Shown one piece after another: positions 39,784-63,686 of a stretch of DNA of 64,000 bases (the stretch's first letter is position 1; every line of letters starts with the position of its first letter). The translations under genes were made by a program, and so were the position numbers. The stretch spans positions 496,001 through 560,000 of the forward strand of contig CAWUHX010000127.1 of assembly GCA_963922205.1 (NCBI GenBank), read 5' to 3'. Source of the DNA: Romanomermis culicivorax (Eukaryota; Nematoda; Enoplea; Mermithida; Mermithidae). The notes beneath the pieces are model-generated. The model had not been told where the DNA came from, searched no databases, and saw only the letters and a program-made list of their open reading frames with translations.

Positions 39784-40979
39784 GGGCCCGGTTTCACCAC
39801 AATGTTACAAGTCGAAAGGCCCTCTCATACTTCACTGCATGGTACCCCACGGCGCCGCGTATCGCCAGTTGTTCTATCCATACTAAAAAGCGGCACCGGC
39901 CAGCGCCGCACGGTACCACCTTTGAAATATGAATAGGTTTTTGTAATTTTTGCGGCGCCGCGCTGCGCGGCGCCACCATCAGGTTTTAACTGAACCGAAA
40001 TTTTCGAACAAGTTATGGGTTCTAAAGTTGCAGCATACTGTTGTTGTAACATATTGTTGCATACTGTGACATCTATACATGTAGTTGAATCATATTTTCA
40101 CTTGAATGATGAATTCTGACACTTGTCTAATTATTTTACCAAATTGCTTACTTAATTTTCAATGAAGATTTACTCAGAAGTTGATCACTCAATTTGCAAT
40201 GAAGACATTATAATGTGTAAAAATTATGAATATGCAAAGTAGGTGTAAACATGTTCCTACATCAAGCGTACCCCATTTCGATCGTGTCTTTATTCCCCCA
40301 ACGTCCCTCTTCTGCAAATATCCCAATTGTCCGAAAGTTAATATTCCCCGTAGGTCCCGATTCCCCGAATAATGAATAAATTTTTTATTTCCCCTAAAAA
40401 TACATTAGTCTCTAATCTCTGAACGTCCCGATTTCCCGAATACTAGGGAAAGGAGATGGATCCACTTTGAATCTGGGTCCTAAACAGCAGGTCCGACCGG
40501 ACCCAGATCAGATCTGGATTCTGTATATGGCACATATGTGAATGAATAATCGTGTATATATATTCAATTTTTCAAAATCAATTTATATAAATTGATATTT
40601 CTCAGCAGTTCAAGAGCTATTAATCGTTGGAATGATAAGTAAATTGAAACAAGAGCCCAAAATCTTTAGACTAGGCCTTCTTGCAAGCTTCTATCTGCAC
40701 CATGCAGGAATGATTGATTTTTATTTTTCTTTTTTGCTTTTTATTTTTCGATTTTTTCCTATTTTTCATCTTTTTCGCATTTTTCGTTTTTTGAATTTGT
40801 CGAGATGAGCAATACACATTTTTTGGGAAGAGCAAAATCCAAATGTAAAAAAGTGGCGGAGTACGACAAGCCACCACACGGCGACGCTTGTTAGTATGAA
40901 TAGGACAACCTGTTGAGAGTGGTCACAGCAACCACCTCAACTACAAATTGTTGCAAAAAAAGAGGGCACCTTTCCCGTT

Positions 40980-41053
40980 GCTCGGTTGGCTCAGTTGGTT
41001 AGAGCATGCGGACGGTAGCCGCAAGGTCCCGGGTTCAGGTCCAGGACTGAGCC
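40980..41053 (+). repeat. tRNA-like SINE head, degenerate copy
   Basis: Same layout as 41209-41282 but with a mismatch in the T stem and a G-T pair in the acceptor. It is the first of two tandem units about 230 bp long, each starting TGTTGAGAGTGG (40911 and 41141). Confidence 0.55.
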
Positions 41054-41208
41054 TAACTTTTACCGAAGCCCCGAGTGACGGGAAGAGGTTGCCTCAACAC
41101 TGGTGGCCCTTGACAGTCCGTCAAACTGGACGGCGGAGGGATGTTGAGAGTGGCCAAAGTAGTCACCCCAACTACGAATTCTTGCAAAAAGAGAGCGCCT
41201 TTCCTGCT

Positions 41209-41282
41209 GCTCGGTTGGCTCAGTTGGTTAGAGCATGCGGACGGTAGCCGCAAGGTCCTGGGTTCAAGTCCCGGACCGAGCC
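41209..41282 (+). tRNA. tRNA-Thr(GGT)-like cloverleaf, probably a SINE head
   Basis: The 74-nt sequence folds as a full cloverleaf. The acceptor is GCTCGGT/ACCGAGC, the D stem GCTC/GAGC, the anticodon stem TGCGG/CCGCA, and the T stem CTGGG/CCCGG. A box and B box (GGTTCAAGTCC) are present. The loop ACGGTAG would give anticodon GGT (Thr), but position 33 is C instead of the near-universal T. That oddity, and the tandem repeat context, favour a SINE or pseudogene over a working tRNA. Confidence 0.5.
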
Positions 41283-43002
41283 TAACTTTTACTGAAGCCC
41301 CCAGTGGCGGGAAAAGATTGCCTCAACAAACCGGCCCTGCGCGGTACCTCGTGGCGAAGTATGACAGGGCCTTTACGAGTACTACGAGTGTCGAAATCCA
41401 GGAGTAAATCAGTTTCACTAGCTTGACTCGTGCTACGGGTGACAAGCTACAACCTACGGGTGACAGACTGCAAGCTAAGAGTGATGCAAGTTCTGCTACG
41501 GGTGATGTGCTTTGCGTTACGAGTCTATAGTAACAGTGTTTCACCATGTTTTCCATAGGATTCGTAAAATGATCATTTTATGGGGTGTTTTTTGGCACTC
41601 ATTATACAGGAATCCGTAATGTTATTATAATCGGGTTGGGAAATTTGTTCTGGAAATTATCAATTTCTAAGTTATTCTGAAATTTAATCAAACCTCGAAG
41701 AAATTTTCTCAATTCTTGTAAATATTTTTTAGATGTTGATGAAACATATAAAAATTTCGAAAAATTTACTTCGAAAAAAAAGGAAAAAACGATTCCCTAC
41801 AGAAAATCATTTTCCTCACATTTTTGAAAATTCATCAATTTTACAGAAATTTTCTGAATTTATTGTGAAAGTTAATTTAAAAAAAACATCCAAAAAAATT
41901 GCAAAAAATTTCTAGATCATTGCAGATTACTTACTATTTTTGTTAGTTATTCGTACGGAATACATGGAGGGCTACTTGAAAAAATTCGTTAATACTCTAA
42001 AAAATGTGTTACTACTTGAAAAAATTTGTTACGATCTGAAAAACATTGTTACCTTCGAACATGATGCACAAACTTTTTTTCAAGATGCATCACAAAAATT
42101 TCAAGATGCTTCGCAAAAGTTTCAAGTTGCATCACAAAAAAATCAAGATAAGAGACATTTCCGATGTTCGACTTTTTTTCAAGTGCATCTCATTTTTCTC
42201 GAGATAATCTTGGAAAAAATCAAGATGGCATGATGGCATCTCGAAAAAAATAAAATTACATCTTGAAAAAAAATCAAGACTCTATCTTGAAAAAAATGAA
42301 GATCTCATCTTGAAAAAAAATCAAAATGGGTGGCACATTTCTTAAACTAGCCAATTAAAGGCGTTCCTCCACACCTTTATATATTATATACGGGAACCCT
42401 TCAAAGTGCATTTGTGAGGTCAGGGCTTGCTAGAGGAGGGTGCCCTTGGTTCTTACCAGAGGGGATGGCAGAGGAGGTGGGGTTATTTCGCACGGGCAAT
42501 CTGATGGACATGTTGGTTTTGTAATAAAAATTTTTTTTGGGGTTTTTCAGTAAAATGTCAAAAATGCTTGTTTTTCGCCCAAAATGCAGTAATTTCGAGA
42601 AAGTATCCAAATTATCATTTCTTTGTCAGGTTGACAAAAGAAAACAAAAGTCAAAGATGCACAAATACTACTAGGCTATGATTCCTACGACCCACTTTTG
42701 GTCCGTGAAAATCTCATCAAATTTAGGAGTACTTTCATTCTCATAGTGGTAGGTAACTCATTTGGTGAAACATACAGTCGTAAACTATGAAAAACCGTCG
42801 CTCGTAACACTCATAAATCGTGGGCCCATACTCATAAACTATTTTTTGGTGAAACGGCCACTTGTAGCACTCCTAGACTCGTAATTCCTTGCTCGTAAAA
42901 TCTGATTTTTGGCGAGACAGCCATTCGAAGCTCTCTTAACATGGGACTCGTAACTCGTGACATTTTACTCTTAATACGGAGTTTTGTGGTGAAACCGGGC
43001 CC

Positions 43003-46528: not shown

Positions 46529-47424
46529 AGTGCCCCTGACGCGTCACTAGGACGCAAGACATTAGGACGCAGGGACATTAGGACGCAGGACATTGGGACG
46601 CAAGACATTAGGACGCAAAGACATTAGGACGCAGGACATTAGGACGCAAAGACATTAGGACGCAAGACATTAGGACGCGAGGACATTAGGACGCAGAAAT
46701 TTAACCCCAGAATTTGTGAAAGTCAATCTGAAGGGTATTATTCACTGTTCTGGAGGCTCACTTAGAAGTGGGTTCAAAGAAACTGAAGAGTCTTGAATGC
46801 CTCCCACATTGCAACTTTTTCTGTTTTCGGATGAGTTTGAAAAGCAGTGTCGGTTCAGACGGGAAACTAATGTTCAGTATATGTTTAAACGATATTGGAA
46901 AAGTCCCAAAACGCCACATCCTGGAGTCTTATGGAAAAAGTCTTGCGAGCAGTTTGTTTTGCAAAATAATAGGGAACCATAAAATTTTAGTGGGAGCCAA
47001 AAAATAACTTAAAGTGCTAGAATTGTAAAAATTCATTAATATTTGTTTCTCTCATGTTAGCATTTGGAAATGCAAATGGATCAGGTGTGTCACTGTATCT
47101 CGAAAAGACAAGGGCTTGATTTTTCTTGAGTGTCACTTTCTCTCATTAGAAAAAATGAAATCATTAACACGAAATAGTACATTATTAACACATATCTTTC
47201 ATATAATAAAATTAATGCTGGGAAAAATTTCCATGCAGCAATAAATTCGATTATTTTGTGACAAGATTATATGTTTTAACGTTCTCGGATGTTAAAAGTT
47301 CTGCGTCCTAGTGTCTTTGCGTCCTAATGTCCCTGCGTCCTAATGTCCTGCGTCCTAATGTCTGCGTCCTATAGTCTGCGTCCTAATGTCTTGCGTCCTA
47401 ACGGCATAGCGCCAAGAGTGCCTG
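46529..47424. mobile_element. foldback element, ATTAGGACGCAAGAC arms
   Basis: The left arm (46545-46697) is about nine units of ATTAGGACGCAAGAC type. The right arm (47305-47403) is the inverted string GTCCTGCGTCCTAAT. The loop of about 600 bp has no recognisable gene. The outer ends (GTGCCCCTGACGCG and, inverted, GCACTCTTGGCGC) pair imperfectly. Confidence 0.7.
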
Positions 47425-48677
47425 TGTCATGAAAATTCATAGCACGAAATTTTGAGCCGGATTGAAATATAAATTATGTGGAAAGATATTGTTATATCCA
47501 ACCCAAATCATGAGTCAAGTTCAAAAATCTCAAATTTTTCACCGAAAATTGGTTGAATAGAAAATTATTACCAGAAATCACATATGTAATCCTAAATGAA
47601 TATTAGAATGATGCTGGGTCGAGAAACCGCAAACTCTATAAAATATATTCATACATTCTTTTTCAAAAAACAAGCGGGCATCACAATAACTATTCTCACT
47701 TTGCCAAAAATAGATTTCAAACAATCACTGAATTTCTGAGATTCGATGGAAAATTGCAAAATTTTCTAAACAAAAATTTTTCTTTGCAGAAATTCTAACA
47801 GAATATTAACGAACAGACAATTATGAAAGAGAAACAGAGCTGAAGAAGAAACGAAACAGAGAAACAAAAAAATTAATCCACAATATTAATTTGAAAACTA
47901 ATTTTCGACTTTAGTCCGAAAATAGCGACTTAAAAAATTTATGCACGAACAAAATTTTGAAACAAAAGATTTCAAAAATTTTACGAGAAGTGGTAACATG
48001 AATTTTTTCATAACAAAACGTGAAATGAAGTCTGATGTTGTGGAAAAATTCAAGAGAACTTCAAGATAAAAGATTTGAGAATACTTTACTCGTGGTTAAA
48101 GTATTAATTAAAAATCGGCTGGAAATGATCCGATTGTAGGATGGTAGGAGTTATTCCAATTTCCGACAAAGTGAGTCCGAAATATCTACATATCTGTATG
48201 CATTGTTGTGAGTGAAGTATCCTGATCACTCCAAATGCATACCCATCAACAAGGGCGTTTGGAAGTTGTCACTTGTTTCTTTAATTTTCAAACCCGAAAC
48301 CTGGATGTTTTAATTCGGTGAATACAGAATGCATGATGACGCAGAGTATTATTACCATAAAATCTTGTATTGAATAATGAAAAAAAAATCAGTAACCTTA
48401 TGATGAGCAGTGAGCATTTGTTCCAAGTGAACAGTAGTAGTATAGAGACCCCCCTCAAGCGCAAAAAGCTCCCCGGCCCATGCAAAAGATAGGCGTTGGA
48501 CTTGAAAAAAAATCACAACCTCCCCGACACACAAAACATAGCCGACCTTCCCCCCCCCCCCGACTACTATGACGTCATTTTTTCCGGCTGGAAAAAAGCA
48601 TGACGTCACACCTGGGCTAGAAAGAAAAAAGTTGCTGAAACTTGGCCCACCCACATCTCCGTCAAAACTCAAGATAA
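47425..48677. other. no gene recognised
   Basis: AT-rich at first, then a C-rich patch at 48445-48570. Frames on the minus strand near 48352-48672 follow the base composition and have no recognisable domain. Confidence 0.35.
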
Positions 48678-49062
48678 TGTGTTATATATGGTGCTTTTCG
48701 GAATCAGCTCAATGAGATCTATCGATTGGTACCCAACATGACCCATTTAAGACGAAAGACTAAATTTAGTGCAGGACTCTACTGTTTGTGCTCTTATTTA
48801 TTACACACCGCGGCCCGCCGCTGCCGCCCGCCGCTGCCGCCCGCCGCTGCCGCCGCGCCTGTTGGGGGGAGGAAAGTTCGCCTAGCTAATAAAGCTGAAG
48901 CTGCTGCTTCAAGCTTTATATAGCTGGCCTAAATGGAATAAACAATCGATATGAGCAATAAATGATGTGATATATCAACAGAAATTGTGTACTCATTTGC
49001 ACTGATCACAGGATCAGTCCCAGCGCCAGCCGCGGGGAGGCTAGTACACATGTGGCGCCAGT
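48678..49062 (+). mobile_element. candidate 5' LTR plus primer-binding site
   Basis: The sequence begins TGTGTTATATATGG and ends CTAGTACACA (49050), giving TGTGT/ACACA ends. It has an AATAAA and a TTTATATAG region. It is directly followed by TGTGGCGCCAGTAC, resembling a primer-binding site (TGGCGCC). Inside is a tandem CCGCCGCTGCC repeat (48813-48857). No internal retrotransposon genes follow: the Polinton begins here instead. It may be a truncated LTR element. Confidence 0.35.
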
Positions 49063-49096
49063 ACTTTCATAGAAAGTACCCATAATAATTGTTGTT

Positions 49097-49276
49097 TTAC
49101 TTTTTTCTACTATAGTTGTGATCCCAAGTCCAGTCTTTCTTCATCAGCCTTTTTGTTCTTTTCACTGGTGGAGGATCAACACTCAATTCTCTGTATATAC
49201 CTCCCTGAACATATTTACACACAGCATAATGCACAGAATGCATTGGAATTTTCCCACATAAGTTGCAAGGCTCCAT
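49097..49276 (-). CDS. small C2HC zinc-finger-like Polinton protein, 59 aa
   Basis: This short gene lies just after the TBP gene. The 59 residues have a possible zinc site, C4-x2-C7-x8-H16-x3-C20, followed by a basic C-terminal half (KRTKRLMKK). A TATA box (TATAAATAT, from 49319) precedes the ATG by 43 bp, as for the other genes of the element. That is the main reason to believe it is real. The function is unknown. A nucleic-acid-binding role is a guess from the fingers and charge. No break is visible. Confidence 0.5.
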   Translation of the reverse strand: MEPCNLCGKIPMHSVHYAVCKYVQGGIYRELSVDPPPVKRTKRLMKKDWTWDHNYSRKK

Positions 49277-49310
49277 TGCAGAGAATGAATGTTTCAGCTT
49301 TCTATATGAT

Positions 49311-49319
49311 ATATTTATA
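49311..49319 (-). promoter_or_regulatory. TATA box of the 59-aa gene
   Basis: TATAAATAT, 43 bp before the ATG at 49276. Confidence 0.4.
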
Positions 49320-49359
49320 CCGGTGGGTAGTACTGTAATCCAATCATACTAGTACTTAC

Positions 49360-49881
49360 TCAGCAACTTTGAAAACTGACAAGTAACTCTTTGAAGTTCT
49401 TCTGCAGTCCATCATTGGTCTTGGCACCCGTGATAATAATTTTACCTTTGTGAAAAATCAATGCACATATGCCCTGCTTGTTAATTGTATATTTCAGTGC
49501 AGGAAATAATTTGGGAGAATAATCACACTGACCCCTATGAGTGTTATAGAATCCTTCAACATTGATACAGTGATCTAGGGCATATGACCCAACAACATTG
49601 CACATTCTAAATTTCCTGGGTCTTGGTCGATAGCCAAGTTTGAGCAGTATTTCTGCAGCATAATCTATACTTTTCACAGCCTGCTGAGTTGCCTTAATGC
49701 CCACACATACAAGCTTGCCATTTTCATACAATAGTAGACAACATTTTGGATCATTAAGATGCCAAATCAGTGACCTGAATTTTCCCGTTGTCAGGTTAGA
49801 GCCATCCAATTTTTTAGTAAGTGAGTCTAAATTGGGTCGAGAGCCAAGTTCAGCTGTGACAGTAATGTTTTGTACTTCCAT
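49360..49881 (-). CDS. TATA-binding protein (TBP) homologue encoded in the Polinton
   Basis: The 173 residues cover the whole TBP core, two saddle repeats (about 4-84 and 92-171), with no N-terminal extension. Recognisable blocks include FRSLIWHLNDPK, GKLVCVGIKA, KLGYRPRP, NVVGSY, KLFPALKY and GKIIITGAK. Of the four aromatic residues that kink TATA DNA in TBP, three align as Phe (F35, F126, F143). The fourth is Tyr (Y52). The minor-groove Asn is kept in repeat 2 (N95) but appears to be Glu in repeat 1 (E11). The ATG lies 2 bp after the penton gene's stop codon, so the two are probably co-transcribed. The frame is open throughout. It should bind promoter DNA in the nucleus. That it serves the element's own TATA boxes is inference. 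Confidence 0.88.
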   Translation of the reverse strand: MEVQNITVTAELGSRPNLDSLTKKLDGSNLTTGKFRSLIWHLNDPKCCLLLYENGKLVCVGIKATQQAVKSIDYAAEILLKLGYRPRPRKFRMCNVVGSYALDHCINVEGFYNTHRGQCDYSPKLFPALKYTINKQGICALIFHKGKIIITGAKTNDGLQKNFKELLVSFQSC

Positions 49882-49883
49882 TT

Positions 49884-50667
49884 TTAGAATAAACTTCGCT
49901 TTCTAAAGTGTAACTTCACAATTGTTTTACCAGTGACAAATTTTATAGGTTTGTCCTGATCTGTTCTGATTGAAATTTTGATAGAATTGATATCTTTTAC
50001 GAGTAGAGGCAAGTAGTGAGGAGCTATATATATCTTATCTATAATGTCACCAAAAGCTCCCTCTATATTAACGATATGGAGGAGGGGGGCTAAAATATCA
50101 CCAGCAATCTGTTGTTCAATGATGTTACAATAAACATACATAGTTTCGAGACCAGCCTTCATATCAGCAGGGTGTGCAGCAGCAATTTTCAATTTTTCAG
50201 ATGAAGTTGTTTCTAGTTGTGATTTCTCGAAGCCCAACAGATATAGTAAAGGATCACTTAATTTTATGCTCTTGATTCTAGTCAGGTTCACTTTCAGGAC
50301 AACTGCTCTGGCTAATCTCCTGTATGAAAATTCGATAAACTCATTATATTCAACTTTTTCCTGTTCACTCAACAACCTGATGGATTGTTGGATAGCTTCA
50401 ATTAAATCTATTATAGATTCATACCTTGTAGAAGGTACTTTTAGTAATTGCCTAGTATTGGTCTGAAGATCATAAAATTTTATTACACTATCACTAGGTG
50501 TTATATTGAACCATGTGTTTGGGTAGATGAATTCACAAAGTGCACATTCCCATTCACCTTGCAAAAATCAATCTATGAGGCAACCTGATACTAAAATTTG
50601 AAGCGGAGTTACTCGAATCACTCTGAGCATTGCTCGGCAATGTTACATAAAACTGAGAAAAATCCAT
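49884..50667 (-). pseudogene. penton-like minor capsid protein, one frameshift
   Basis: This is a structural protein of the type found beside adenain and the major capsid gene in animal Polintons. I associate it with the penton/minor capsid but am only moderately sure. The N-terminal part starts at the ATG at 50665-50667 (MDFSQFYVTLPSN). It runs into a frameshift near 50562-50570, beside a run of five Ts. The remaining 226 codons (from QGEWECALCEFIYPNTW) follow in another frame. The rest is open to the stop at 49884. A TATA box lies 38 bp before the ATG, overlapping the protease stop codon. TBP follows after 2 bp. The frameshift could be real decay or a base-calling error. Confidence 0.65.
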
Positions 50668-50695
50668 TTTTCAATATGTCATTATGGTAGAAACT

Positions 50696-50705
50696 AACTT
50701 TTATA
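50696..50705 (-). promoter_or_regulatory. TATA box of the penton-like gene
   Basis: TATAAAAGTT, 38 bp upstream of the ATG at 50667. The protease gene's stop codon TAA is formed by bases of this motif. Confidence 0.6.
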
Positions 50706-51195
50706 TTCTGTTGAGCTGTTCAAATAAAAATGCATCATCATATATGGGAGTATTTGTTCTAAAGAGACTGTTGATGAAGCCAGTGACAAATTCATCAGTA
50801 TAGCCTTGTTCCAAACTAGCAGCAATATCTCTCATACTTATACCTCTAACCATCCACACAAGAAAGTATACACATAACTGACCACATAAAGCAGTCAGGT
50901 ACTGTTGAACACATTTGGTATTGCACTTGTAAGAAGTAGATACAGTCTTGATGTAATTCCTAAGCTGTTGAGGTGGTTCCAGGCCATAACTGTCAAAATA
51001 ACAACATGCATGTTTTTTATCAACAAACAGAGCTACCCAGTGTGAACCAGGTTCATCCAGCTTGTCCAGATTTACAACCAATGCTGTGGGTACAGTGTCA
51101 AGAGGTGGTAAACAGTCTATAGGAAATACCCCATTGAAGATTTGTCTGAGAGCTTGATCTCTATTGATCAAGATGAAGATTTCAGAGGTATTCAT
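50701..51195 (-). CDS. adenain-like cysteine protease
   Basis: The 164 residues form a maturation protease of the adenovirus type, used to cleave capsid and core proteins during assembly. The catalytic residues can be placed: H52 (GSHWVALF), D68 (YFDSYG), Q97 or Q98 for the oxyanion hole, and C104 (TALCGQLC). Length and order fit the family. The frame is intact. Its ATG overlaps the end of the capsid gene (ATGA), so the two are probably expressed from one transcript. A weak TATA-like GATAAAAATAG lies about 25-35 bp upstream, inside the capsid gene. Confidence 0.85.
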   Translation of the reverse strand: MNTSEIFILINRDQALRQIFNGVFPIDCLPPLDTVPTALVVNLDKLDEPGSHWVALFVDKKHACCYFDSYGLEPPQQLRNYIKTVSTSYKCNTKCVQQYLTALCGQLCVYFLVWMVRGISMRDIAASLEQGYTDEFVTGFINSLFRTNTPIYDDAFLFEQLNRI

Positions 51196-52489
51196 GCAGT
51201 ATAGTCATTAAAGACGTGTCTATTTTTATCGATCATGATCAAATTGTCAAATTCTGCATAAACAATAACTTCTATACCTGCATCAGGTATCCTATCAGCA
51301 AACGTCAATTCTATACTTGTGGAACCATCTCTAATCAAGTCCCAATGTCCACTATCATCTTCATCAGGTGTAAAATCGAAGGCAAGTAGCACTGTCCATT
51401 TTTAAAATTAAGTCTGCTAATGCCATTCCCTTTGTTATCTTTAGCCATGTCTAGAGTTTCAAAGAGCTGATCATACGCTTGAATATATTTGTTGTTGGCG
51501 AAATCAAGTCTTAATGGAGTCGCTGGAAAAGCTTGACCACCAGAGACAACCTTGACTTCGCTTATACTGTAACATTTAAAATTAAATGGAGATTTTTTTA
51601 TTTCTCCACGATATGCATCCACATCGACGCATGCTATAATTATCCTACGTGGCAACTGACCAGTGAATAGAGTATTCAGAGGTGTAGATTGTGTTGTACT
51701 AGTAATATGAAGATTCACCATTTGGACTCGTCTAAGTGGGGACTTGACTGGTGTCTTTAACATTGCTTTTTCCAGAGCCAATCCAACACTGTCGAGAACT
51801 TCAACTTTCCTGATGAAGAGTTTCATCTGGGAAACTTCCAGTATTGCATTTTCTGCATCACCAGCTGGACACTGTAATACAAACGGATTACTATTGCGAA
51901 TCAATTCCAGTTTGAGATCAGTATTGCTGAGTAAATATCGATCTTGCATTAGAAGATCAAAATGAAGAGGAGCTGTTATTTCAACTGTTTGACCATTTTC
52001 AAAGCACTTTACTCTGTCTTTAAAACCCTGGCAATCAGCAGTATCTATTTTAGGACCTGCTTCCATAGTATACAAAGAAGACTGTAAGTGATTTTTAGCA
52101 TCAAAACCAAAACTTAAATCAGTTTCAAAGAATGCTCTGTAGGCATACTTATCCCCACTATCATGAATAAGACGACCATTCAGGAAGAGCTTCACTTGTC
52201 TGAAAAATGCTTTACCAATCAGATTGATAGGTGCAATTACTGGTGCAGCTCCACCAGCAGGAATTGTCTAAGTAATTTTCAATGTCATGTACAAATAATT
52301 TTTGCTAAGCTGAATCATGTGATAATCTGGGGGTATACGAAATTCGTATGGACCATCATTAGTGATAGGATTTATCAGGTTAACTTCATCCCAGTAGCCT
52401 CGTTTAATTACTACTTGTGTGGGAGGAACAGTAAAAAAGTCCAATTCAGACTTTGTACTAATACTAGAAATTGTATCAATTAGAGCCAT
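51192..52489 (-). pseudogene. major capsid protein (hexon-like), one stop and one frameshift
   Basis: This is the double-jelly-roll major capsid protein of Polintons. It is homologous to the animal proteins annotated as F54H12.2-like. It starts at the ATG at 52487-52489 (MALIDTISS) and spans about 430 codons. Conserved blocks include VPPTQVVIKRGYWDEV, QLSKNYLYM, APINLIGKAFFRQVK, LIHDSGDKYAYRAF and VIVYAEFDNLI. An in-frame TAG lies at 52268-52270. A frameshift lies at about 51390-51405, after LNFKNGQ. Otherwise the reading is continuous. The final codon overlaps the protease ATG. The start overlaps the end of the pX-like gene by 14 bp. As it stands the copy cannot make a full-length capsid protein. 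Confidence 0.85.
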
Positions 52490-52899
52490 GTTTCCTTCTC
52501 TTTTTCTTTGAGAATATATCATTTATCTCAACTTTTATACCTTTTGGTCTAGTCCCCAAGCCTCTCCCAGTCTGCAGCGCATCTCCAGCACTGTGAGCCA
52601 ACTTGGAGAGTGCTGCTCGGCCATGTTCTTCTAGAGACTCTTTAATAGATCGACCTTCCGCTAAATCTCCAGCAATATGTGCACCTGTGGATAGTGCTTG
52701 CTTACCAATATGGCCAGCAGCTGACTTAATAACAGGAATGGCCATTCTGAATAATGATCTAAAGAAGCTTCCTAGACCTCCTCCACGTTGATACGAATGT
52801 GTCTTTGAAGCCTTTGAAACCATAGCCAGTTTGTTCAGCTTGTTCAGTGTAGTACTGAAGCCAAGTTGCATAATCTTCTGGATTGAAGTAATGTCTCAT
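52476..52899 (-). pseudogene. pVI/pX-like minor virion (core) protein, one frameshift
   Basis: A small basic protein with a Gly-rich hinge followed by an amphipathic helix (GGGLGSFFRSLFRMAIPVI), the pattern of Polinton proteins likened to adenovirus pVI/pX. The C-terminus is strongly basic (SKKKRRKHG). The natural start appears to be the ATG at 52897-52899 (MRHYFNPEDYATW). That frame changes near 52795, just before SYQRGGG, so a frameshift separates the N-terminal 35 or so codons from the rest. TATAAAAGTT lies 41 bp before this ATG. Assignment to this family is by sequence character and position beside the capsid gene. Confidence 0.6.
52530..52539 (-). promoter_or_regulatory. TATA box of the major capsid gene
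   Basis: TATAAAAGTTG, 50 bp before the capsid ATG and inside the 3' coding part of the pX-like gene. Confidence 0.6.
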
Positions 52900-52930
52900 C
52901 TTTATAAGTTTACAAAATGCTGCAAATTAC

Positions 52931-52940
52931 AACTTTTATA
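52931..52940 (-). promoter_or_regulatory. TATA box of the pX-like gene
   Basis: TATAAAAGTT, 41 bp before the ATG at 52899. It overlaps the end of the preceding gene. Confidence 0.6.
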
Positions 52941-53646
52941 CTTTTCCAAATTCTAACCATCTAGACCTTGGTGTAATGCTTTTGGGTGCCTTAATTTTTT
53001 TACCATCTATGGGTCCACTCAGGGAAGCAAATGTTTCATTGCTTTCACTTCCAACATTTAGCCTGGACTTATTTACAAAAAGATCTCGAGGCACATTCTC
53101 CTTTAAGAGGTTCTTTACAAACAATTCTGACCCTATTGCTTACTGGCGCCTAGGACCAACTCTCGCCACATCAGAAATCAAATCAACAATGTTGGTTCCA
53201 CTTATTTTGGTGCCTTTCAGAATCATTTCGCCTTTATCCGACCACTCCATGTGTGGATTATCTTTAGCATAATCATATAACATTTTAGCTTGACTATGCC
53301 ACTTTTTTGGTACAATTTTCATAGTTTTTTCATACAGCACATCTTTTCTCGGGGTAACATCAACAGTGCTTTCTGCAGTGTCTGGCTTTTTTTGCTTCGG
53401 TGTTATTTCTTCCAGATCAGGAATAGGGTGTTCTGCAACAGATTCACTAACAGTCAACTCATAAGGTCTGGTTTGATCCTGCCTAGCCTGCCTATATCTG
53501 TGCAACACTTGATTGTATAAGATTATCTTTCTGTCAGAGGGCAATGACTTATTAGTTAAAATGTCATTCATTTCTTTATCCAAAGCAGTCATTACATTAG
53601 CTGCTATATCTTCCCTATGACCAGTGTCATGCGGTACAAGAATCAT
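52936..53646 (-). pseudogene. conserved Polinton protein (MILVPHD family), one in-frame stop
   Basis: A hydrophilic protein of about 236 codons with the opening MILVPHDTGHRED, LYNQVLHRYRQARQ, and GTNIVDLISD further on. It resembles a structural/accessory protein common in animal Polintons and lies beside the core protein gene. I know no biochemical function. An in-frame TAA at 53140-53142 separates the last 68 or so codons. The two parts are in one frame with no other damage. Upstream ATGs at 53662-53664 and 53659-53661 exist, but they sit only 9-12 bp from the TATA box, so the ATG at 53644-53646 is the better start. Confidence 0.6.
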
Positions 53647-53660
53647 TTTATTTGTATGCA

Positions 53661-54005
53661 TCATCTTTTTATAATTGCATCAGCTAGTAATTGTCCAGCT
53701 ATTCCTAAAATTGGTGCCAACAATACAGGCAAAAATCCACCTTTTTGTTCTAGAATGTCTCGTCTTTTGCTGAGACTTGTTTTCTCATCTGCTAATACTC
53801 ATAAATGTCCCTTGTGAGAACTTAATTTATTCAAGATATTTTTGTCAACTTTTATATTGCCTTCAAGGAAGTTGAGTATACATTCACACAAACAACGTAT
53901 CAGTTCAAGATCAGCGGTGCTAATAATAGCTTTACGTTGCTTAGGTTTAGCCTTAGCTAGTACCCTGATGTAATCAATATTATGTCTAAGACGATCACGA
54001 GGCAT
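53661..54005 (-). pseudogene. small conserved Polinton protein, one in-frame stop
   Basis: It starts at the ATG at 54003-54005 (MPRDRLRHN). It has a basic KAKPKQRKAI motif, a cysteine pair (CLCECILNFLEGN), then HKGHL. A TGA at 53799-53801 interrupts. Reading on in the same frame gives a C-terminal part with QKGGFLPVLLAPILGIAG, a hydrophobic tail usual for this small protein in animal Polintons. It ends at 53661-53663. A CGA-to-TGA change would explain the stop. Function unknown. TATAAAAATT lies 36 bp upstream. Confidence 0.6.
53664..53673 (-). promoter_or_regulatory. TATA box of the MILVPHD-family gene
   Basis: TATAAAAAGA, 27 bp before the ATG at 53646, overlapping the 3' end of the upstream gene. 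Confidence 0.45.
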
Positions 54006-54031
54006 TTTGACTATACAACTGAAAAATAGAC

Positions 54032-54041
54032 AATTTTTATA
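54032..54041 (-). promoter_or_regulatory. TATA box of the small conserved protein gene
   Basis: TATAAAAATT, 36 bp before the ATG at 54005, overlapping the end of the ATPase gene. Confidence 0.55.
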
Positions 54042-54660
54042 CTTTTGGCACATATATCGTGGAAAATTTTGAGAAAATATCAGCTCTGAGTCTAAGTTTA
54101 TCGGGTGTTGCTTGAGAAAGATCAATAATTATATAACTATATGGTTTAAATGTGGCATCTTCAAAAGACTCGAGAAAGTACTTTACTTTATCAGGAAACA
54201 ACTGTCTTGCCAAAGTTTTTACTTGGTGCCTATCTGCAGGATTTTTCATCAAAACAAGGTACTCTGCATTTATTCTAGATGTTCTTAGACCCTCGAAGAA
54301 AACATTTTGAACAATGTGTATCACAGACACATTCATGTGATGACATCCACAAGTATAAAGAATGTCGAGATGCTTATTTTTTGCCATTTCCTGCATCAGA
54401 TCATCTAGTATAACAAGTTGGGGTGCAGGACTGAGCTCTCTTATCAAGTTCATGTCAGGTGATCCCCGATAGAAGTTGACTCTGCCAGACAAGTCATTGT
54501 AGACTGGCTGCTTCTCACTAAAGAACCAGTGAATATGTTCAGGAACTGGTTCAATCAAGTACTTCACATTTAGTACTAAATTCTTTACAAAGGTTGTTTT
54601 ACCCGCTTTTGTAGGGCCAGCAACAATACATGTAAAGGGGTGATTAAATTTTATAGCCAT
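54037..54660 (-). CDS. genome-packaging ATPase (FtsK/HerA, A32-like)
   Basis: This P-loop ATPase drives DNA into the capsid in Polintons and related viruses. The 207 residues from the ATG at 54658-54660 (MAIKFNHPF) show Walker A GPTKAGKT (residues 15-22), Walker B LVILDDLM, and a downstream VIHIVQN sensor-like stretch. An ATG nine codons upstream would lie within the TATA box, so the downstream one is chosen. The frame is intact. It ends next to the next gene's TATA box. Confidence 0.88.
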   Translation of the reverse strand: MAIKFNHPFTCIVAGPTKAGKTTFVKNLVLNVKYLIEPVPEHIHWFFSEKQPVYNDLSGRVNFYRGSPDMNLIRELSPAPQLVILDDLMQEMAKNKHLDILYTCGCHHMNVSVIHIVQNVFFEGLRTSRINAEYLVLMKNPADRHQVKTLARQLFPDKVKYFLESFEDATFKPYSYIIIDLSQATPDKLRLRADIFSKFSTIYVPKV

Positions 54661-54685
54661 GTTTTTTTTTCTTCTATAGATTCTC

Positions 54686-54695
54686 AACTTTTATA
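54686..54695 (-). promoter_or_regulatory. TATA box of the ATPase gene
   Basis: TATAAAAGTT, 35 bp before the ATG at 54660. Confidence 0.6.
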
Positions 54696-54800
54696 ACATG
54701 CAACATACTGGAAATACCAGCAATTGTGCTTTGATTTTTTTTTTAATTTTTTTCTTGTATTAATTTTTTATTACAATATTTACTCACAATTATTACAATA

Positions 54801-55064
54801 TTAATAGGGTATATCTATACCTTCATCATCATATTTTTGTACAGCCTCTGGAGTAAGATTCATCCAGATCTCAAAAAGAAGGGGTCCAGCACTGCAGGTT
54901 TTCATCAAACCCTCTAGTGCCTTGGCAAAATGCCAAAACCCAGTTAGTTTTCTCTTACCCGTACGATGATCCAGCTCATTGGCCACTTTAGCCAAAATCT
55001 TCCATTCACGCTTGTAGCCATCATTTATTCGATCCCAAAAAATATGAGGCATATCTGGCCACAT
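54801..55064 (-). CDS. unknown Polinton protein, 87 aa or longer
   Basis: An open frame from MWPDMPHIFWDRINDGYKRE to the stop at 54801. It is rich in aromatic residues and Lys and has no motif I recognise. It occupies a gene slot in the element. The frame stays open a further 18 codons upstream without an ATG. A possible start in another frame (ATG at 55132-55134) lies 73 bp below a TATATAAGTT box (55198-55207). A frameshift near 55085 could therefore have removed the true N-terminus. Whether it is full length is unresolved. Confidence 0.45.
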   Translation of the reverse strand: MWPDMPHIFWDRINDGYKREWKILAKVANELDHRTGKRKLTGFWHFAKALEGLMKTCSAGPLLFEIWMNLTPEAVQKYDDEGIDIPY

Positions 55065-55197
55065 CTTTTTGAGTATAAGGTCTTTTGAGAAAAGTGCCCA
55101 TACTCAGTGATACATTTAAAAAAATACCTTCCATTTTGAAAAAGTGACTAAACTGTAGAAGGAAAAGTTTTAAGACTGAAGACTAAGGATAATTTAC

Positions 55198-55207
55198 AAC
55201 TTATATA
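55198..55207 (-). promoter_or_regulatory. TATA box for the 87-aa gene
   Basis: TATATAAGTT, of the same type as the other boxes but further from the candidate start (73 bp to the ATG at 55134). Confidence 0.35.
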
Positions 55208-55246
55208 CATGAAAAATGTTACAGAATACTTGGAAATCACATTTCA

Positions 55247-55522
55247 CTAGTTTACTGTAGGCTTCAAGATGAGTGCCTGTCTATCAGCTAGCTGTTTTTT
55301 TACTACAGCGGTGCCAGCTTCCTGCAATGCCTTATTGTATTCTAGACATTTTGGGCACATTTCAATGGTAAAGAATGTTTTGCCCTGAGACAACTGGAAA
55401 CACTCCCGTTCAGAGCTATTCTTTTGGCAAAAATAACACAGTTTGATCATTAAGGGATACATGGCTCTTGGCAAGTTTCGAGCGCAGAGTTCAATAGGAG
55501 CTTTAACTTTTTTCGACTCCAT
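55247..55522 (-). CDS. zinc-ribbon-like Polinton protein, 91 aa
   Basis: The 91 residues contain C29-x2-C32 and C56-x2-C59 separated by 23 residues, a zinc-ribbon-like arrangement, with extra cysteines at 13 and 41. The C-terminal third is predicted helical and charged (QEAGTAVVKKQLADRQ). I do not recognise the family. Zinc ribbons are common in transcription factors such as TFIIB and TFIIS. Together with the TBP gene this hints at a role in the element's transcription, but that is inference. The frame is intact and has a TATATAAGC box 45 bp upstream. Confidence 0.55.
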   Translation of the reverse strand: MESKKVKAPIELCARNLPRAMYPLMIKLCYFCQKNSSERECFQLSQGKTFFTIEMCPKCLEYNKALQEAGTAVVKKQLADRQALILKPTVN

Positions 55523-55555
55523 TCTAGTTAATCAAATGATTAAAATAATTTTGAA

Positions 55556-55567
55556 GTTGCTTATATA
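55556..55567 (-). promoter_or_regulatory. TATA box of the zinc-ribbon gene
   Basis: TATATAAGCAAC, 45 bp before the ATG at 55522. Confidence 0.5.
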
Positions 55568-55633
55568 CTGAAATGTCAGGCACAGGTAAAAATTTTTAGA
55601 CCTGCAAGTCATTGTTTAGTTTTCCTACTGTAG

Positions 55634-56452
55634 CTATAGTTTTATCAAATCTGTCACCCAACTATTGAATTTATCTGGGTGACCCTTCCATTTAACAAAG
55701 TATTCAGTTTTCCCAGCCCTTTTTCTCTTTCCTATAATCTTTTCTATAATGCAGACATCTGTAATCTCATCAACTTTCTGTAATTCTGGCTCATAAAATA
55801 TACCCTGTACGACTTCTCCCAGCTGATCTTCTACCCTATATACTGGAGGATATCTAGCTTTTTGCTCACGAATCACAAAAACTTCATCACTCCAATTGGG
55901 AGTGTAACCCTTCTCAAAAGTCCTTTTGACTTTGCTTATGTGTACCTTGTCACCGGGGATCAGTTTAAATTGTACACTAGACTTACATTTCCTGAAAAGC
56001 TTTTCAACAATTTCAGCTTTATTCTCATCAGTAACATCAATGGGAGCAACACCTATGGTCCTATGCCTAGTCGAGTTGTAAGAGCTTAGCAGGTGGGATA
56101 GAATGTTTAGGTACTTGTATGTATTATTTTGAGTAAAATGACGCCACATTCTTTCCTTTAAAGTTCTATTGAACCACTCAACAATGCTAGCCTTGGTTTC
56201 ACTAGCAGTTATGAAAAAACTAATGCCAAGTTTCTTTAATAAGGCCTGGAAGGCTTTGTTTGTGAACTCTGTACCAGCATCAGTCTGTATTTTTTGTGGC
56301 TTTCTGCCAGATTTCAAAATTGTTTGAAAGGCATGCAAAATAGATGATGTATTTTTATTTTTCAAGGGTACAGACCATGCAAATTTTGACAGGACATCTA
56401 TACAATTTAAAAGGAATTTGTATCCATCATTATGCCTGGCGAGTGAACTGAG
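55634..56452 (-). pseudogene. Polinton integrase with chromodomain, 5' truncated
   Basis: A retrovirus-like DDE integrase that inserts Polinton DNA into chromosomes. The core is readable from HNDGYKFLLNCIDVLSKFAW (first catalytic Asp), through IQTDAGTEF (second Asp), to KASIVEWFNRTLKERMW (Glu). The usual KASIVERFNR has W in place of R here. The C-terminus is a chromodomain (IIGKRKRAGKTEYFVKWKGH), common in these integrases and thought to steer insertion. The zinc-binding N-terminus is missing because a Gypsy LTR begins at 56453 within the gene. The rest of the frame is open. The missing part should lie beyond the retrotransposon's far end. Confidence 0.85.
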
Positions 56453-56933
56453 TGTTGAGGTGGGCTCAGGTGCACGTGTTCAGCTTCCGGCGTTGGTGCG
56501 CAGGTGGTTGGACGCGGCGAAAAGTGGCGAAAAGAAATGATAAATTTGCATAGGTTATTTCTGCCACTGTTTCACGTTTTTGCTGTCTTTTTATTAGTGT
56601 TAAAAAAGACTTGTTTATGGAGCGTCGCCGCCATTGTCTTTATTATAAGATTTTTGTTTATTATTTTATATTGGCGTCGCCCTTCGTCACCCAATACAAC
56701 TTGGACCTGTAAGTTGTTTTGTTTTGTGAGCGTAGTGGAAGGAGGCTTTAAGATTAGGAGTGGAGACTTGGGTAGGAGCTCCTGAGGTACGTGTCAAGGT
56801 GTTCTGCCTGAGGTTTAGTGAAAGTTCTGGCGAGTATCTGGTGAAACGTCTGGGAGAGTTTTGTGGTGTTTATTATTGTTGTTAGCCTGTGGTCAGAACT
56901 GTTGCTTAATTGTGACCCCACAGCAGCCTAACA
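56453..56933 (+). repeat. 5' LTR of a Ty3/Gypsy retrotransposon
   Basis: The 481-bp LTR runs from TGTTGAGG to CCTAACA, with TGTT/AACA ends. The likely target duplication copy on this side is CTGAG (56448-56452). The partner lies outside the window, so it is unconfirmed. A TATA-like TTATAAGATTT lies near 56641. Confidence 0.7.
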
Positions 56934-56935
56934 AG

Positions 56936-56953
56936 TGGTGGACTCTTAACGCC
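56936..56953 (+). other. primer-binding site
   Basis: TGGTGGACTCTTAACGCC starts 2 bp after the LTR, where a tRNA 3' end (CCA) would prime reverse transcription. The tRNA is not identified. Confidence 0.55.
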
Positions 56954-56960
56954 TCTCACG

Positions 56961-59900
56961 ATGGATAACCGGAGAACCACCAGAAAAATAACTAAACCTC
57001 CTGGGTTTTATTTGCAGTCACATACCGGAAAAGTGAAGAAGATGAGTATTCCGGTAGGAAAAATGTTGAGGACTCCTCCTAGGTCACATGAACCTAGTGT
57101 TTCGAATCTCGACTCTGCTGAAGAACACGCAGCGGTAGAAAAGGTTCAAGCACAGGCGCCTGAGACTGAAGGAAGGAGAGAGAGTGGAATTGCCGAAATG
57201 GCAAGAGTTGAAGAAGAGTTAAGGAGAAGTGGTTTTGAGATGGCTAGGAGAGCCGAGATTGAAACTACTGTAAGTGGTAGTGTCAGAGGTCAGCAGACCT
57301 TTGAGAAGGAGAGACCGACGTCGCCCTCGAAGTTGGTCCATCCGATGGCCGAGACGCTGGAGGAGATTAGACGGAAGTCGAAACCGGCGTGGAGGTCGAA
57401 CATGATGGACATGAACTACGACGAATATTACGAGGACGCGCCGGCCGATTTATACGACGACAAATATTCGAGGCGATACGACCCCGAAATTACGAATTGG
57501 AGTCGACGAGAGGATCCGAGGGATCGAGTCGATCCCAAGGACGTACGAATTAACGCGCTGGAAAAGAAGGTCGAGTTATTGATCAAAGTAATCGAAAGCG
57601 CGCAGGTCAAGGAAAAGGAGTCCGAGGATGATCAACGGAGGAAGATAGGTGAGTCTTCTTACCTTGAGAATAGAGTTGAGAGAGTAACTGAACCTAAGAG
57701 AGAGGTTCATTCAGAAGTTTATGTCAGGTCTCAAGAGGATAGAGACAAATATTCGGCTAGAGATAGAGGTTGGACTGAGGAGCCGCAGAGTTCGAGGAAT
57801 GCTGAACAAGCACAATCGAATGCCTACGGTTACTCAGAGAATAGGAGGTCGAGGGAAAGGAAAGTGACTATTTGCGACGAATCGTCCCAGGGAGAGGATA
57901 GGTTTTCTCGTCCTACTCCTTGGAGAGATACCGCAAATAGAGCTGACCTTAGCCCTGAGAGGAGAAGAAAAAGAAAGTCGAAGAGTCGAAAGAGATCTCA
58001 CAGATCTAGAGCTAGAAGTAGACATTACTCGGATAGTGATAATAGCAGTTCATCTACTTCGAACTCTAGCTCAAGTGTTGAAGTTGATGTGAGAGATGTG
58101 GTAAAGGCCTTGAAACATAGACCTTTGCATGATAGTATAAAGCCGACGGAGGCTTTGAAGTTTTTTACTGATCTGGAAAGTGAGTTTCTGGAGAATACGG
58201 CTGATAAAGTGAAAAAGGAGTGTTTGAGAAGGTTGTCTCAGAACACGGCGAGGAGGATAGCGAGAACATCCTCAAGTTATACAGAAGCGCGGAGAAATAT
58301 TTTAAAGTATCTCGCGCCGACTTATGATTTGACGATGCTCAAAAGAGAGTTGTTTAATATGAAACAGGAAGAAGGCGAGTCAGCCTTAGAGTTTTTAAAG
58401 AGATTGAGTAATCATGTGGATCTGGTCTATGCAGATCAGAGTGATCAAGTAAGGCAAGAGAATATTATTAATGCCTTCATTTATAAGAGTAGTCCGTTGT
58501 ATCAGACGGAGTTGCAGGATGTATTGCCATCGATGAAAACTTGGCAAGACCTTGCATACGCCGTAACACAGATTGATAAGAAATATAAGAATGTGTTTAC
58601 TACTTTTGGAGCCAAAGATAAACCGATTGTAGTGAATCAAGTTGTAGCGGAGGAGATGTGCCCGGAAATTGCTTTTGTCGGGAATGCTCTGTATGGAAGT
58701 ACTAAAAAGTATAACCAAACGAAGTCAAGACCACAAAATCAGTTGCAAAAGGCAGTAGAAGAGGAGAGAAGTGAGGAGAATGCGGAAGAGATGCTACCTG
58801 GTCCGTCGCCTCGTGATGTCAAAAAGTCTAACGAGGAGCAGGCCAAGGAGTCTTTTCTAGCTATTCTCTCAAAGGAGTGGCTACAATTGGTTCAGAAAGT
58901 GGATAAATTACAAGTTACTCAGAGTGAAGCCTTAAAAGAGTTGACTACTGTGAAGGCTGCGTCTGCTGAAAAGCAGAAGCAGTTGAAGCAGCAGAGACCC
59001 TATTGCATTTATCATAAGAATAATTCGCATGCTACGGAGGAGTGTAAGACATTAGCATACCGGCGTCAGCAACAGCAGCACGGTGGATTTAACCGTGGCA
59101 TGTCTAATCTGTATTATGGTGGTGATAGAAATGCTTCATATAGAGGAAGTTTTAGAGGAAGAGGTGGACCTCAATTTGGATTTAGAGGAAGAGGTGCCTA
59201 TTATGTAGGATTCCCCGAAGAAGATCAAATGTACGGGTATGACCCAGAGTTTGAGAGATACAGGGAATTCTGCAGACTTAGGGAACAAGGCATCCAGTTG
59301 CAGAGACAGCCTCAGTTGATGTTACCTGCACCAACTAGTCAACCTGCTATTCAGGGTAGTACCGTCCAGGATCAGTCTGGATCATTTGTTTCGAACCAGT
59401 CGCAACCTAGTTCGCATAACGTAATGGTGACAAGCCGTACAGATGTGGATGATGAAAGCGAAAAGAGTAGAAACAAATCTTCTAGTTTGGTTCTCGGAAG
59501 TATTATTCACCTGGATAAGGTGACACCTCTAGAGAAAGTGAAAGAAAGAGATTTAGCTCATGTGAAATATGGAAGAAAAGCAACGGACGTAGAGAGAAGG
59601 TTGTTGGAAAATTATCCGAAAACGGTTCCTTTCTACATAAATGTGGTTATTAAAGAAACGGCTACCAGAGCTTTAATTGATACAGGAGCTCAGTGTACGG
59701 TCATGTCTTCTAAGCTCCTGAAAAGGGCATTAGACGTTGATTATACAGTGTACCCTCGTATCCTTAAAGTGACTGTAGCTGATGGAAAAGTTGTGCATGC
59801 CTATGGGTATGTACCAGTTTGTATGAAGACTGAATTCGGAAGTTTCCCAGTCAATGCTATAGTGTTGCCAGATGCAGGTGAGGACCTGATCTTGGGCACA

Positions 59901-60434
59901 GATTTTTTGGCACACCCAGATTTAGGTGTGGTGATTGATTTCAAAAGGAATGCCATGACGATACAAGGCATTGAGAGGAAGATTGACGTAGTTCAAGTTC
60001 CTTCTGTAACTACTGTGCAAACGGTAATGGAAGAAGTAACTAAAGTCAGTGTGGCGTCGACTGATTGCATAAATCAAATTGTTTATCCAAAAGTTTGTCT
60101 ACTAAAGACAACTGTTGCAATTGTTGCATGTAGTAAAACCTACATTCCATATGGAACAGATGTTTTGATGAAGGCAAAACTTTGGGATCAACATGGAGAT
60201 GCCACGTTGAACGGAATTATCGTCGAATCAAAGGATTCTGAAAGGAAGTTCAGAATGGAGAAAGCGGTTGTAGACGGATCACAAGAGGAGTTTGTAGTAC
60301 TAATCTCCAATACCACAGGTTCTGGATGTCGGTTTGAGAGAGATCAAATCATTGGCTATACAGAATCTATGCTTATTGAAGATGATGATACGTACAAGAA
60401 GGTGAAGGAAATGAAGAAGATAAAGGAGGAATAG
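56961..60434 (+). CDS. Gag plus aspartic protease of the Gypsy element
   Basis: This 1157-residue frame starts 27 bp after the start of the primer-binding site. The first 340 or so residues are charged and RS-rich. A retrotransposon gag domain follows at about 370-530 ([13 protein letters not shown] and [10 protein letters not shown]). Next comes a zinc knuckle of the C-x2-H-x4-H-x4-C type (C682 to C695) and an RG-rich tail ([10 protein letters not shown]). A retropepsin-like domain has its active site at D907 ([12 protein letters not shown]). It ends at TAG (60432-60434), and pol continues in the same frame. That arrangement would suit stop-codon readthrough, or the TAG may be a mutation. 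The gene makes the particle shell and protease. Confidence 0.85.
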
Positions 60435-63400: not shown

Positions 63401-63686
63401 TCATGATTATTCCGTCAATGATTGGGTTTTGCTGAAAGTCGATAAACAGAAAAAACTGGGTCTGCCGTGGCAAGGACCGTATGTTGTTACTGATAATAGT
63501 AGATTATCAGAGAATGTGCTTGAAATCGCTCACTGGAGAGAGCCGCTGAAAAAGCAGGTGGTATCCGTGAGCAGGTTAAAGCACTTTCGCTACGAGACCA
63601 GTAGATGGCTGCAGTCTAACGACGTGTCATCTAAGGACACGCAGTTTACTGTAGATTCAAAAATTAGTAATTATAAACTGCCGTAG
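60435..63686 (+). pseudogene. Gypsy pol (RT, RNase H, integrase) with in-frame TAG
   Basis: It continues in the gag frame. The order RT-RNase H-integrase is that of Ty3/Gypsy. RT shows KDGTTRPVVDFRGINEVTKD, LDLKSGYWQVPM, VMPFGLKNAPAEFQRMM and the YIDD box (VYIDDIIIF, near 61121-61147). RNase H begins near QTDASGIALGAVL. Integrase has the H-H-C-C finger (HQGFKRT to CPICQ), then DIVGISPM, LLSDNGSCF and GNGMVERFNQTL for the catalytic D, D and E. An in-frame TAG at 61383-61385 falls at a usually aromatic position just after RFLGMLQ. It breaks the connection between RT and RNase H. All else is open to the stop at 63684-63686. This copy is therefore probably inactive. Confidence 0.88.

Follow-up and report, generated by a model that had tools for sequence, protein, structure and literature searches.

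Beta- and gammaherpesviruses encode a viral TATA-binding protein (vTBP; ORF24 in KSHV and BcRF1 in EBV), and a modified TATA box (TATT) is described as the sole recognisable late-promoter element, with an expanded motif in the late promoters of KSHV (PMC7498053, PMC6541308). vTBP is a functional mimic and one of six required viral proteins, and its N-terminal domain binds the Pol II CTD (PMC7498053, PMC6541308). TBP is also encoded by the giant viruses megavirus chilensis (PMC11464507) and CpV-BQ1 (PMC12085832) and by mirus-like elements (PMC10675990). For Polintons, Mavericks or adintoviruses, we found no description of a TBP gene in the open-access literature searched, to which this absence is limited and which agrees in this respect with the preliminary description of the locus. 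The gene set of Polintons and adintoviruses comprises an integrase, an A32-type ATPase, an adenain, a major capsid protein (MCP) and a penton. To our knowledge, Polintons are generally taken to rely on host machinery alone for their transcription.

The window Polinton and its TBP

The window, by which we mean the whole 64-kb stretch of DNA that was analysed, contains an intact ORF of 173 aa on the minus strand, with an ATG start and no internal stop, across which the plus strand is closed (Table 1). The Pfam TBP profile matches this ORF in two stretches, at 120.8 bits against a cut-off of 22.9, so that both direct repeats are present, and the closest solved structures are human TBPs, aligned over residues 2-165. 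The complete two-repeat core that had been claimed from the sequence is therefore confirmed. Identity to human TBP in a full-length alignment is 31%, as is identity to the TBP of the host.

Aligned with yeast TBP, whose numbering is used for reference, the window protein keeps three kinking phenylalanines (F35, F126 and F143, which we take to be yeast Phe 99, 190 and 207) and has a tyrosine (Y52) at the fourth, presumably Phe 116, just as first reported. The same combination is seen in 12 of 12 rows from family A, and all four Phe are retained in 15 of 17 L001-family rows. The minor-groove contacts are presumably N69, T124, N159 and T215 of yeast. The preliminary description had the repeat-1 Asn replaced by Glu; this claim was wrong and has been dropped, because both yeast Asn are kept (N5 aligns with N69 and N95 with N159). 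T151 is likewise kept, and the real change is V60, which stands at yeast T124 in repeat 1. Leu, Ile or Val occupies this position in 18 of 19 rows, made up of the window and 18 metagenome rows (P0121-P0135, P0137, P0138 and P0140), with Thr retained in P0134; the own-genome rows of families A and B have Val and once Met, and the type C rows retain Thr. On this alignment, the common change of the Polinton TBPs is that of the repeat-1 Thr to a hydrophobic residue in the A, B and L001-family rows, P0134 excepted. At the position of yeast E188, which we take to be a TFIIB contact, Lys is found solely in the window copy and the divergent L022, and every other row with a residue there has Glu.

The neighbourhood is as the preliminary description had it, with the TBP 2 bp after a Polinton structural gene on the same strand and in a cluster with capsid, adenain and ATPase genes, of which the capsid and adenain matches fall below the Pfam cut-offs. 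The structural gene is the penton-like one, whose long ORF (49884-50564, minus) ends 2 bp before the TBP. We call it penton-like on account of its position, which we take to be the usual one of the Polinton penton, an N-terminal motif, and homologues in other Polinton families; a PDB search of its product was without support, as was a single-sequence model (pLDDT 36). The names pVI-like and pX-like are likewise presumptive. Membership of the Polintons is indicated by the retroviral-type integrase with its chromodomain and by the capsid set of ATPase, adenain, MCP and penton, with the penton recognised by position and homologues. No PolB was noticed in the window, parts of which were compared with profiles; in a relative, L018, PolB comes directly after the TBP (tblastn 3e-118). 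No clear pair of terminal inverted repeats was found at 47000-57000.

Table 1. Genes of the Polinton and TATA-type boxes in the window
Feature	Position	Strand	Remarks
Small Cys-rich ORF downstream of TBP	49100..49276	-	TATAAATA 43 bp upstream; no Pfam match
TBP, two repeats, open	49360..49881	-	PF00352 2.2e-35; PDB TBPs 4e-25; same position in other copies
Penton-like gene	49884..50667	-	ATG at 50667; frame changes near 5' end; long ORF 49884-50564; tblastn to 20/28 loci and to families D and E
TATAAAATTTG, weaker	49937..49947	-	66 bp before TBP ATG, within penton-like ORF
TATAAAAGTTA box	50695..50705	-	38 bp before penton-like ATG
Adenain-type protease, open	50701..51195	-	PF00770 7e-4, just under cut-off; PDB cysteine protease S273R 0.004
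Major-capsid-like gene, double-jelly-roll-like	51192..52522	-	PF21738 0.012, under cut-off; tblastn across families; no PDB match
pVI-like minor capsid gene	52476..52899	-	Frame changes after 5' part; no Pfam match
TATAAAAGTTG box	52529..52539	-	50 bp before MCP ATG (52489); overlaps end of pVI-like frame
TATAAAAGTTG box	52930..52940	-	41 bp before pVI-like ATG
Conserved ORF, open	53140..53664	-	Homologue in L001, 25%, 1e-12
pX-like gene, split over two frames	53664..54005	-	Single ORF in L001
TATAAAAGTTG	53846..53856	-	Inside pX-like coding region; may be a coding coincidence
TATAAAAATTG box	54031..54041	-	36 bp before pX ATG; holds ATPase stop codon
Packaging ATPase, A32 type, open	54037..54660	-	PF04665 2.5e-6; 309 homologues, best 62% identity
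TATAAAAGTTG box	54685..54695	-	35 bp before ATPase ATG
TATATAAGTTG	55197..55207	-	73 bp before short ORF
Small Cys-rich ORF, Zn-ribbon-like by eye	55247..55522	-	L001 homologue 35%, 5e-9; no Pfam match
Integrase and chromodomain, 5' part missing	55634..56479	-	PF00665 (rve) 3.9e-11; PF00385 5e-9

The element is decayed. One in-frame stop and one frame change interrupt its major-capsid-like gene, frame changes also affect the penton-like, the pVI-like and the pX-like gene, and the open frames are those of the TBP, adenain and ATPase; assembly errors may be a cause of the broken frames. The openness of the TBP means little here, since five lesions in about 5.3 kb would spare a 0.5-kb ORF with a chance of roughly 0.6 (hand arithmetic). 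A gypsy-type LTR element (56961-63686, plus) occupies the place of the missing 5' part of the integrase and cuts the right end of the Polinton.

Elsewhere in the window there is a degenerate, interstitial TTAGGC-like array (34313-34506), which fits a nematode if, as we take it, TTAGGC is the nematode telomere motif. Inverted arrays of a 15-bp unit (TAGGACGCAAGACAT) at 46548-46695 and 47300-47401, some 0.6 kb apart, resemble the ends of a small transposon, and about two tandem 229-bp copies at 40911-41328, in each of which ARAGORN reports a tRNA-Thr(GGT)-like gene and Rfam confirms one, are perhaps a tRNA-derived repeat. On the minus strand lie a BED zinc finger ORF (837-1184) and an open 322-aa frame (27949-28917) that by eye is like a multi-pass membrane receptor and has no Pfam match.

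Copies, relatives and descent

Searching the 359-Mb assembly that holds the window, we located TBP at no fewer than 109 places, counting the window but not the split host gene (best 150 of 438 PF00352 candidates, merged by eye). ATPase places were taken as the best 150 of 1079 candidates and split by score into the first 102, of A/B type, and the other 48, of D/E type. A TBP lies within 8 kb of 62 of the 102, in all 62 cases on the same strand and downstream, at a median distance of 4,670 bp, and the other 40 have no scored TBP nearby among the matches listed. The corresponding count for D/E-type places is 0 of 48, again among the matches listed, and a diverged TBP of this type could have escaped because the TBP and ATPase places are the best-scoring matches. 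With shifted positions as a control, a TBP was nearby for 1-3 of the 150 ATPase places. The D-type ATPase places (L043, for example) have many own-genome copies of equal score with no TBP seen, as if recently spread.

We examined 28 non-host TBP loci, which were hand-chosen rather than random and include some near-copies. The synteny with the penton gene is conserved in 20 of them, where the TBP directly follows a penton-like gene, and the TBP is thus present in the same place in other copies rather than absent from the relatives of the window element, an outcome that the preliminary description had allowed for. Among the other eight, five have PolB without a penton, one has an MCP and two have no other element gene that we could find. 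PolB lies near the TBP in five of the eight type C loci. The type C TBPs of L013, L020, L021 and L028, near PolB and without TATAAAAG boxes, belong to a separate TBP-bearing element type.

Selection was analysed on open TBP frames only, using Nei-Gojobori dN/dS. Among seven window-type copies the ratio was 0.11-0.48 in 19 of 21 pairs, and 0.66 and 1.0 in the remaining two, whose dS is below 0.05. Comparison of the window with L016, L017, L019 and L023 (57-65% identity) gave 0.10-0.14 with dS saturated, and that of L018 with L029 gave 0.22. Purifying selection acts between open window-type TBP copies.

Relatives were also found in other data. Of 24 stretches in genome_contigs that matched the ATPase alignment, two, L001 and L002, are relatives. 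L001, which is 3.4 kb long and was placed in a bacterial MAG, is a mis-binned metagenome contig. Its ATPase is 52% identical to that of the window, three more ORFs of the window have homologues on it (35%, 25% and 39%), and it has a TBP gene (PF00352 6.6e-38, 30% identity) that is oriented away from the ATPase and truncated where the contig ends. The contig independently pairs a TBP with a Polinton-type ATPase and shared neighbours. L002 carries PolB and ATPase genes, neither of them preceded by a box; its ORFs, two of which were checked against Pfam, include no TBP that we noticed. A profile of the window and L001 TBPs retrieved 29 TBPs among 645 candidates. Twelve of these 29 TBPs and the L001 TBP share 53-67% identity with P0122 (itself one of the 29), and of these P0122-like proteins L001 alone has visible gene context. 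As a single-sequence query, the window TBP found none among 27 candidates in the protein database and none in viral_contigs, scans of viral_contigs with the ATPase and TBP alignments and with the L002 PolB found none either, and PHROGs returned two weak, chance-like matches only. Three metagenome TBPs (P0137, P0138 and P0140) have repeat-1 inserts of variable length that are Lys-rich by eye. P0141, a TBP-like protein of the fish Halichoeres trimaculatus with an N-terminal extension, falls among cellular TBPs in the tree.

In the TBP tree, the metagenome protein P0134 falls into a single group with A and B (98/90). The host's own TBP, added as had been suggested at the outset, sits apart from them with the TBPs of human, yeast and Arabidopsis. 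In p-AU tests that included P0134, which nests inside A/B, and whose values are weakened because the groups were named after the trees had been seen, a grouping of host TBP with A/B and P0134 was rejected (3.3e-5), host and human TBP joined with A/B and P0134 gave 9e-4, and all four cellular TBPs with A/B were marginal (0.06; 0.29 in a smaller earlier set). On these last two values, an ancient capture from some cellular TBP may have occurred. An insertion of a host TBP cDNA into a Polinton, or a TBP-related factor domesticated by the host, might be read from an intronless ORF that is open amid broken neighbours, and close identity to a host cDNA had been named as a possible outcome. However, the host TBP core is a split gene of at least three exons, is 87% identical to human TBP and resembles the window TBP no more closely than stated above; a recent insertion is ruled out by this 31% identity together with the p-AU of 3.3e-5, and domestication by the synteny common to many copies (20 of 28 loci, with at least 109 places besides the host gene), leaving either event very improbable indeed. 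How often Polintons acquired a TBP is more finely balanced. At least two independent captures, represented by the A/B, L001 and C types, would agree with a free tree that does not unite these types and with the different places of the gene, which lies downstream of the penton in A/B, divergently upstream of the ATPase in L001 and near PolB in five of eight type C loci. Against this, a single origin was not rejected for A/B with the L001 family (p-AU 0.19) or with type C (p-AU 0.31), and we put multiple captures at slightly short of an even chance relative to one ancient gene.

TATA-type boxes before element genes

In TBP-bearing elements, several start codons are preceded at a distance of 35-63 bp by strand-specific TATAAAAG boxes, which have the form TATAAAAGTTG in the window's family. 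Allowing at most one mismatch, TATAAAAGTTG occurs 12 times in the 64-kb window against 3.5 expected, and eight of the 12, including all four exact ones, lie within 49937-55207 on the coding strand. The 7.4-kb Polinton part has eight matches on the coding strand and none on the other, compared with a mean of 0.28 and a maximum of 3 in shuffles (n=300). The ATPase stop codon falls inside the ATPase-pX box in both the window and L001, and the L001 boxes lie 35 and 43 bp ahead of the ATPase and pX genes.

Across the 28 loci, TATAAAAGTTG with at most one mismatch was found 57 times on the TBP strand and never on the other; 16 loci have any, many of the 57 are in near-copies, and some lie inside the TBP or away from found genes. 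For TATAAAAG, the ratio of TBP strand to other strand is 43:3 in family A (17 loci), 11:0 in B (three loci) and 1:0 in type C (eight loci), the single type C box being the only one in 71.6 kb of TBP-bearing loci that have no full structural gene set in view. In L018 (family B), TATAAAAG stands 40-63 bp before five genes, a PolB-like ORF among them. Counting boxes 25-75 bp before a start codon, TATAAAAG precedes 4/8 genes in the window, 5/7 in L018 and 2/4 in L001, against a position background of 0.03-0.04. No TATAAAAG box precedes the TBP gene itself in the window or L018 nor, judged by eye, in L001.

Families D and E served as controls, each represented by one copy that was partly read (L043 for D; L044 with an upstream piece, L045, for E). 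These copies match ATPase, integrase, adenain, penton, pVI and MCP, and contain no TBP according to a profile that recovers it in 28 of 28 TBP loci. In the same 25-75 bp interval, TATAAAAG precedes 0/8 genes in D, 0/7 in E and 0/2 in L002. The looser TATAWAW gives 6/8 for the window, 6/7 for L018, 2/4 for L001, 0/8 for D, 3/7 for E and 0/2 for L002, with one of the family E boxes 42 bp before the ATPase. A strict tie between box and TBP is disfavoured because the TBP-less family E has these looser boxes at three genes.

Proposed function and known systems

The TBP gene, held in a conserved place under purifying selection and distant from the host TBP, accompanies boxes near gene starts in A, B and L001. 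We favour, with moderate confidence, the reading that a Polinton lineage carries TBP as its own conserved gene, which would nucleate host Pol II at the lineage's own TATAAAAG promoters. The protein keeps the sequence of the two-repeat saddle and would most likely bind the TATAAAAG boxes before several element genes; once bound, it would recruit host TFIIB and RNA polymerase II there. The boxed structural genes, which may be the late genes, would thereby be transcribed as separate short units. A TBP core with matched TATA boxes at short spacing probably fits such promoter-by-promoter recruitment of host Pol II. The original proposal, of an element able to nucleate its own transcription, is strengthened by the boxes, and the act of nucleation itself we continue to put conditionally. 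Counting against this reading, the element that carries the window copy of the TBP is decayed, and this copy has Lys in place of E188.

It is conceivable, if rather doubtful, that the Polinton TBP, whose repeat-1 saddle is altered, follows its own promoter code, the window's family reading the extended TATAAAAGTTG rather than any TATA box. This would draw on the hydrophobic residue at T124 in nearly all A, B and L001-family rows and on the Tyr at F116 in the window's family. The boxes themselves need no viral TBP, since TATAAAAG is a canonical TATA sequence and a good site for host TBP. It may be, then, that the element simply supplies extra TBP because host TBP limits the transcription of its many copies, with specificity unaltered and host TBP serving the same boxes. 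The retention of both DNA-contact Asn and of most Phe would suit such an effect of dosage, as would the TATA-like boxes of a TBP-less family, but the protein is far diverged from host TBP and, P0134 apart, every A, B and L001-family row examined has Leu, Ile, Val or Met in place of T124, and we regard this account as unlikely. Alternatively, the protein could act upon the host, sequestering or redirecting TFIIB, NC2 or Pol III factors so as to damp host transcription or evade silencing, with host TBP again serving the boxes. The presumed TFIIB contact position is kept in most copies and the window's family is altered at yeast F116 and T124, which such a role could explain; yet it is in A, B and L001 that TATAAAAG boxes accompany the TBP, and the gene starts of D and E lack them, and manipulation of the host seems to us improbable.

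If the favoured reading, of a conserved TBP acting at the element's own promoters, is true, a modestly sized element that possesses a general transcription factor, and TATA boxes to match, would control its expression without a polymerase. A promoter code of its own, should there be one, would make this an unusually small eukaryotic viral transcription switch, consisting of one general factor and matching promoters. The TBP-bearing and TBP-less families within one genome offer a natural comparison, and the deeply diverged TBPs with their common repeat-1 change are open to biochemical testing. These proteins may also bear on how larger viruses acquired TBP.

Like giant viruses and mirus-like elements, the Polintons described here are viral-type elements that encode a TBP. 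Both giant viruses also encode TFIIB, and megavirus RNA polymerase subunits; none of these was noticed in the Polintons, as judged without a profile search. Haloarchaeal tailed viruses (HRTV-9 and HJTV-2) likewise encode a TBP, and that of HRTV-9 is 33% identical to P0122, but unlike the Polinton TBPs it groups with archaeal TBPs in the tree. With animal Polintons, Mavericks and adintoviruses the elements share integrase, A32-type ATPase, adenain, double-jelly-roll-like MCP and penton-like genes, and they differ from those described in the open-access literature searched by their TBP gene. The closest precedent would be the herpesvirus vTBP, and the likeness is probably one of how the two work. 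In both cases a DNA element combines a TBP function with small TATA-type promoters, here as read from sequence alone. Unlike vTBP, the Polinton protein consists of the PF00352 core alone, some 172 aa, and its box is the canonical TATAAAAG, and what is new here is the presence of strand-specific TATAAAAG boxes before start codons in TBP-bearing Polintons.
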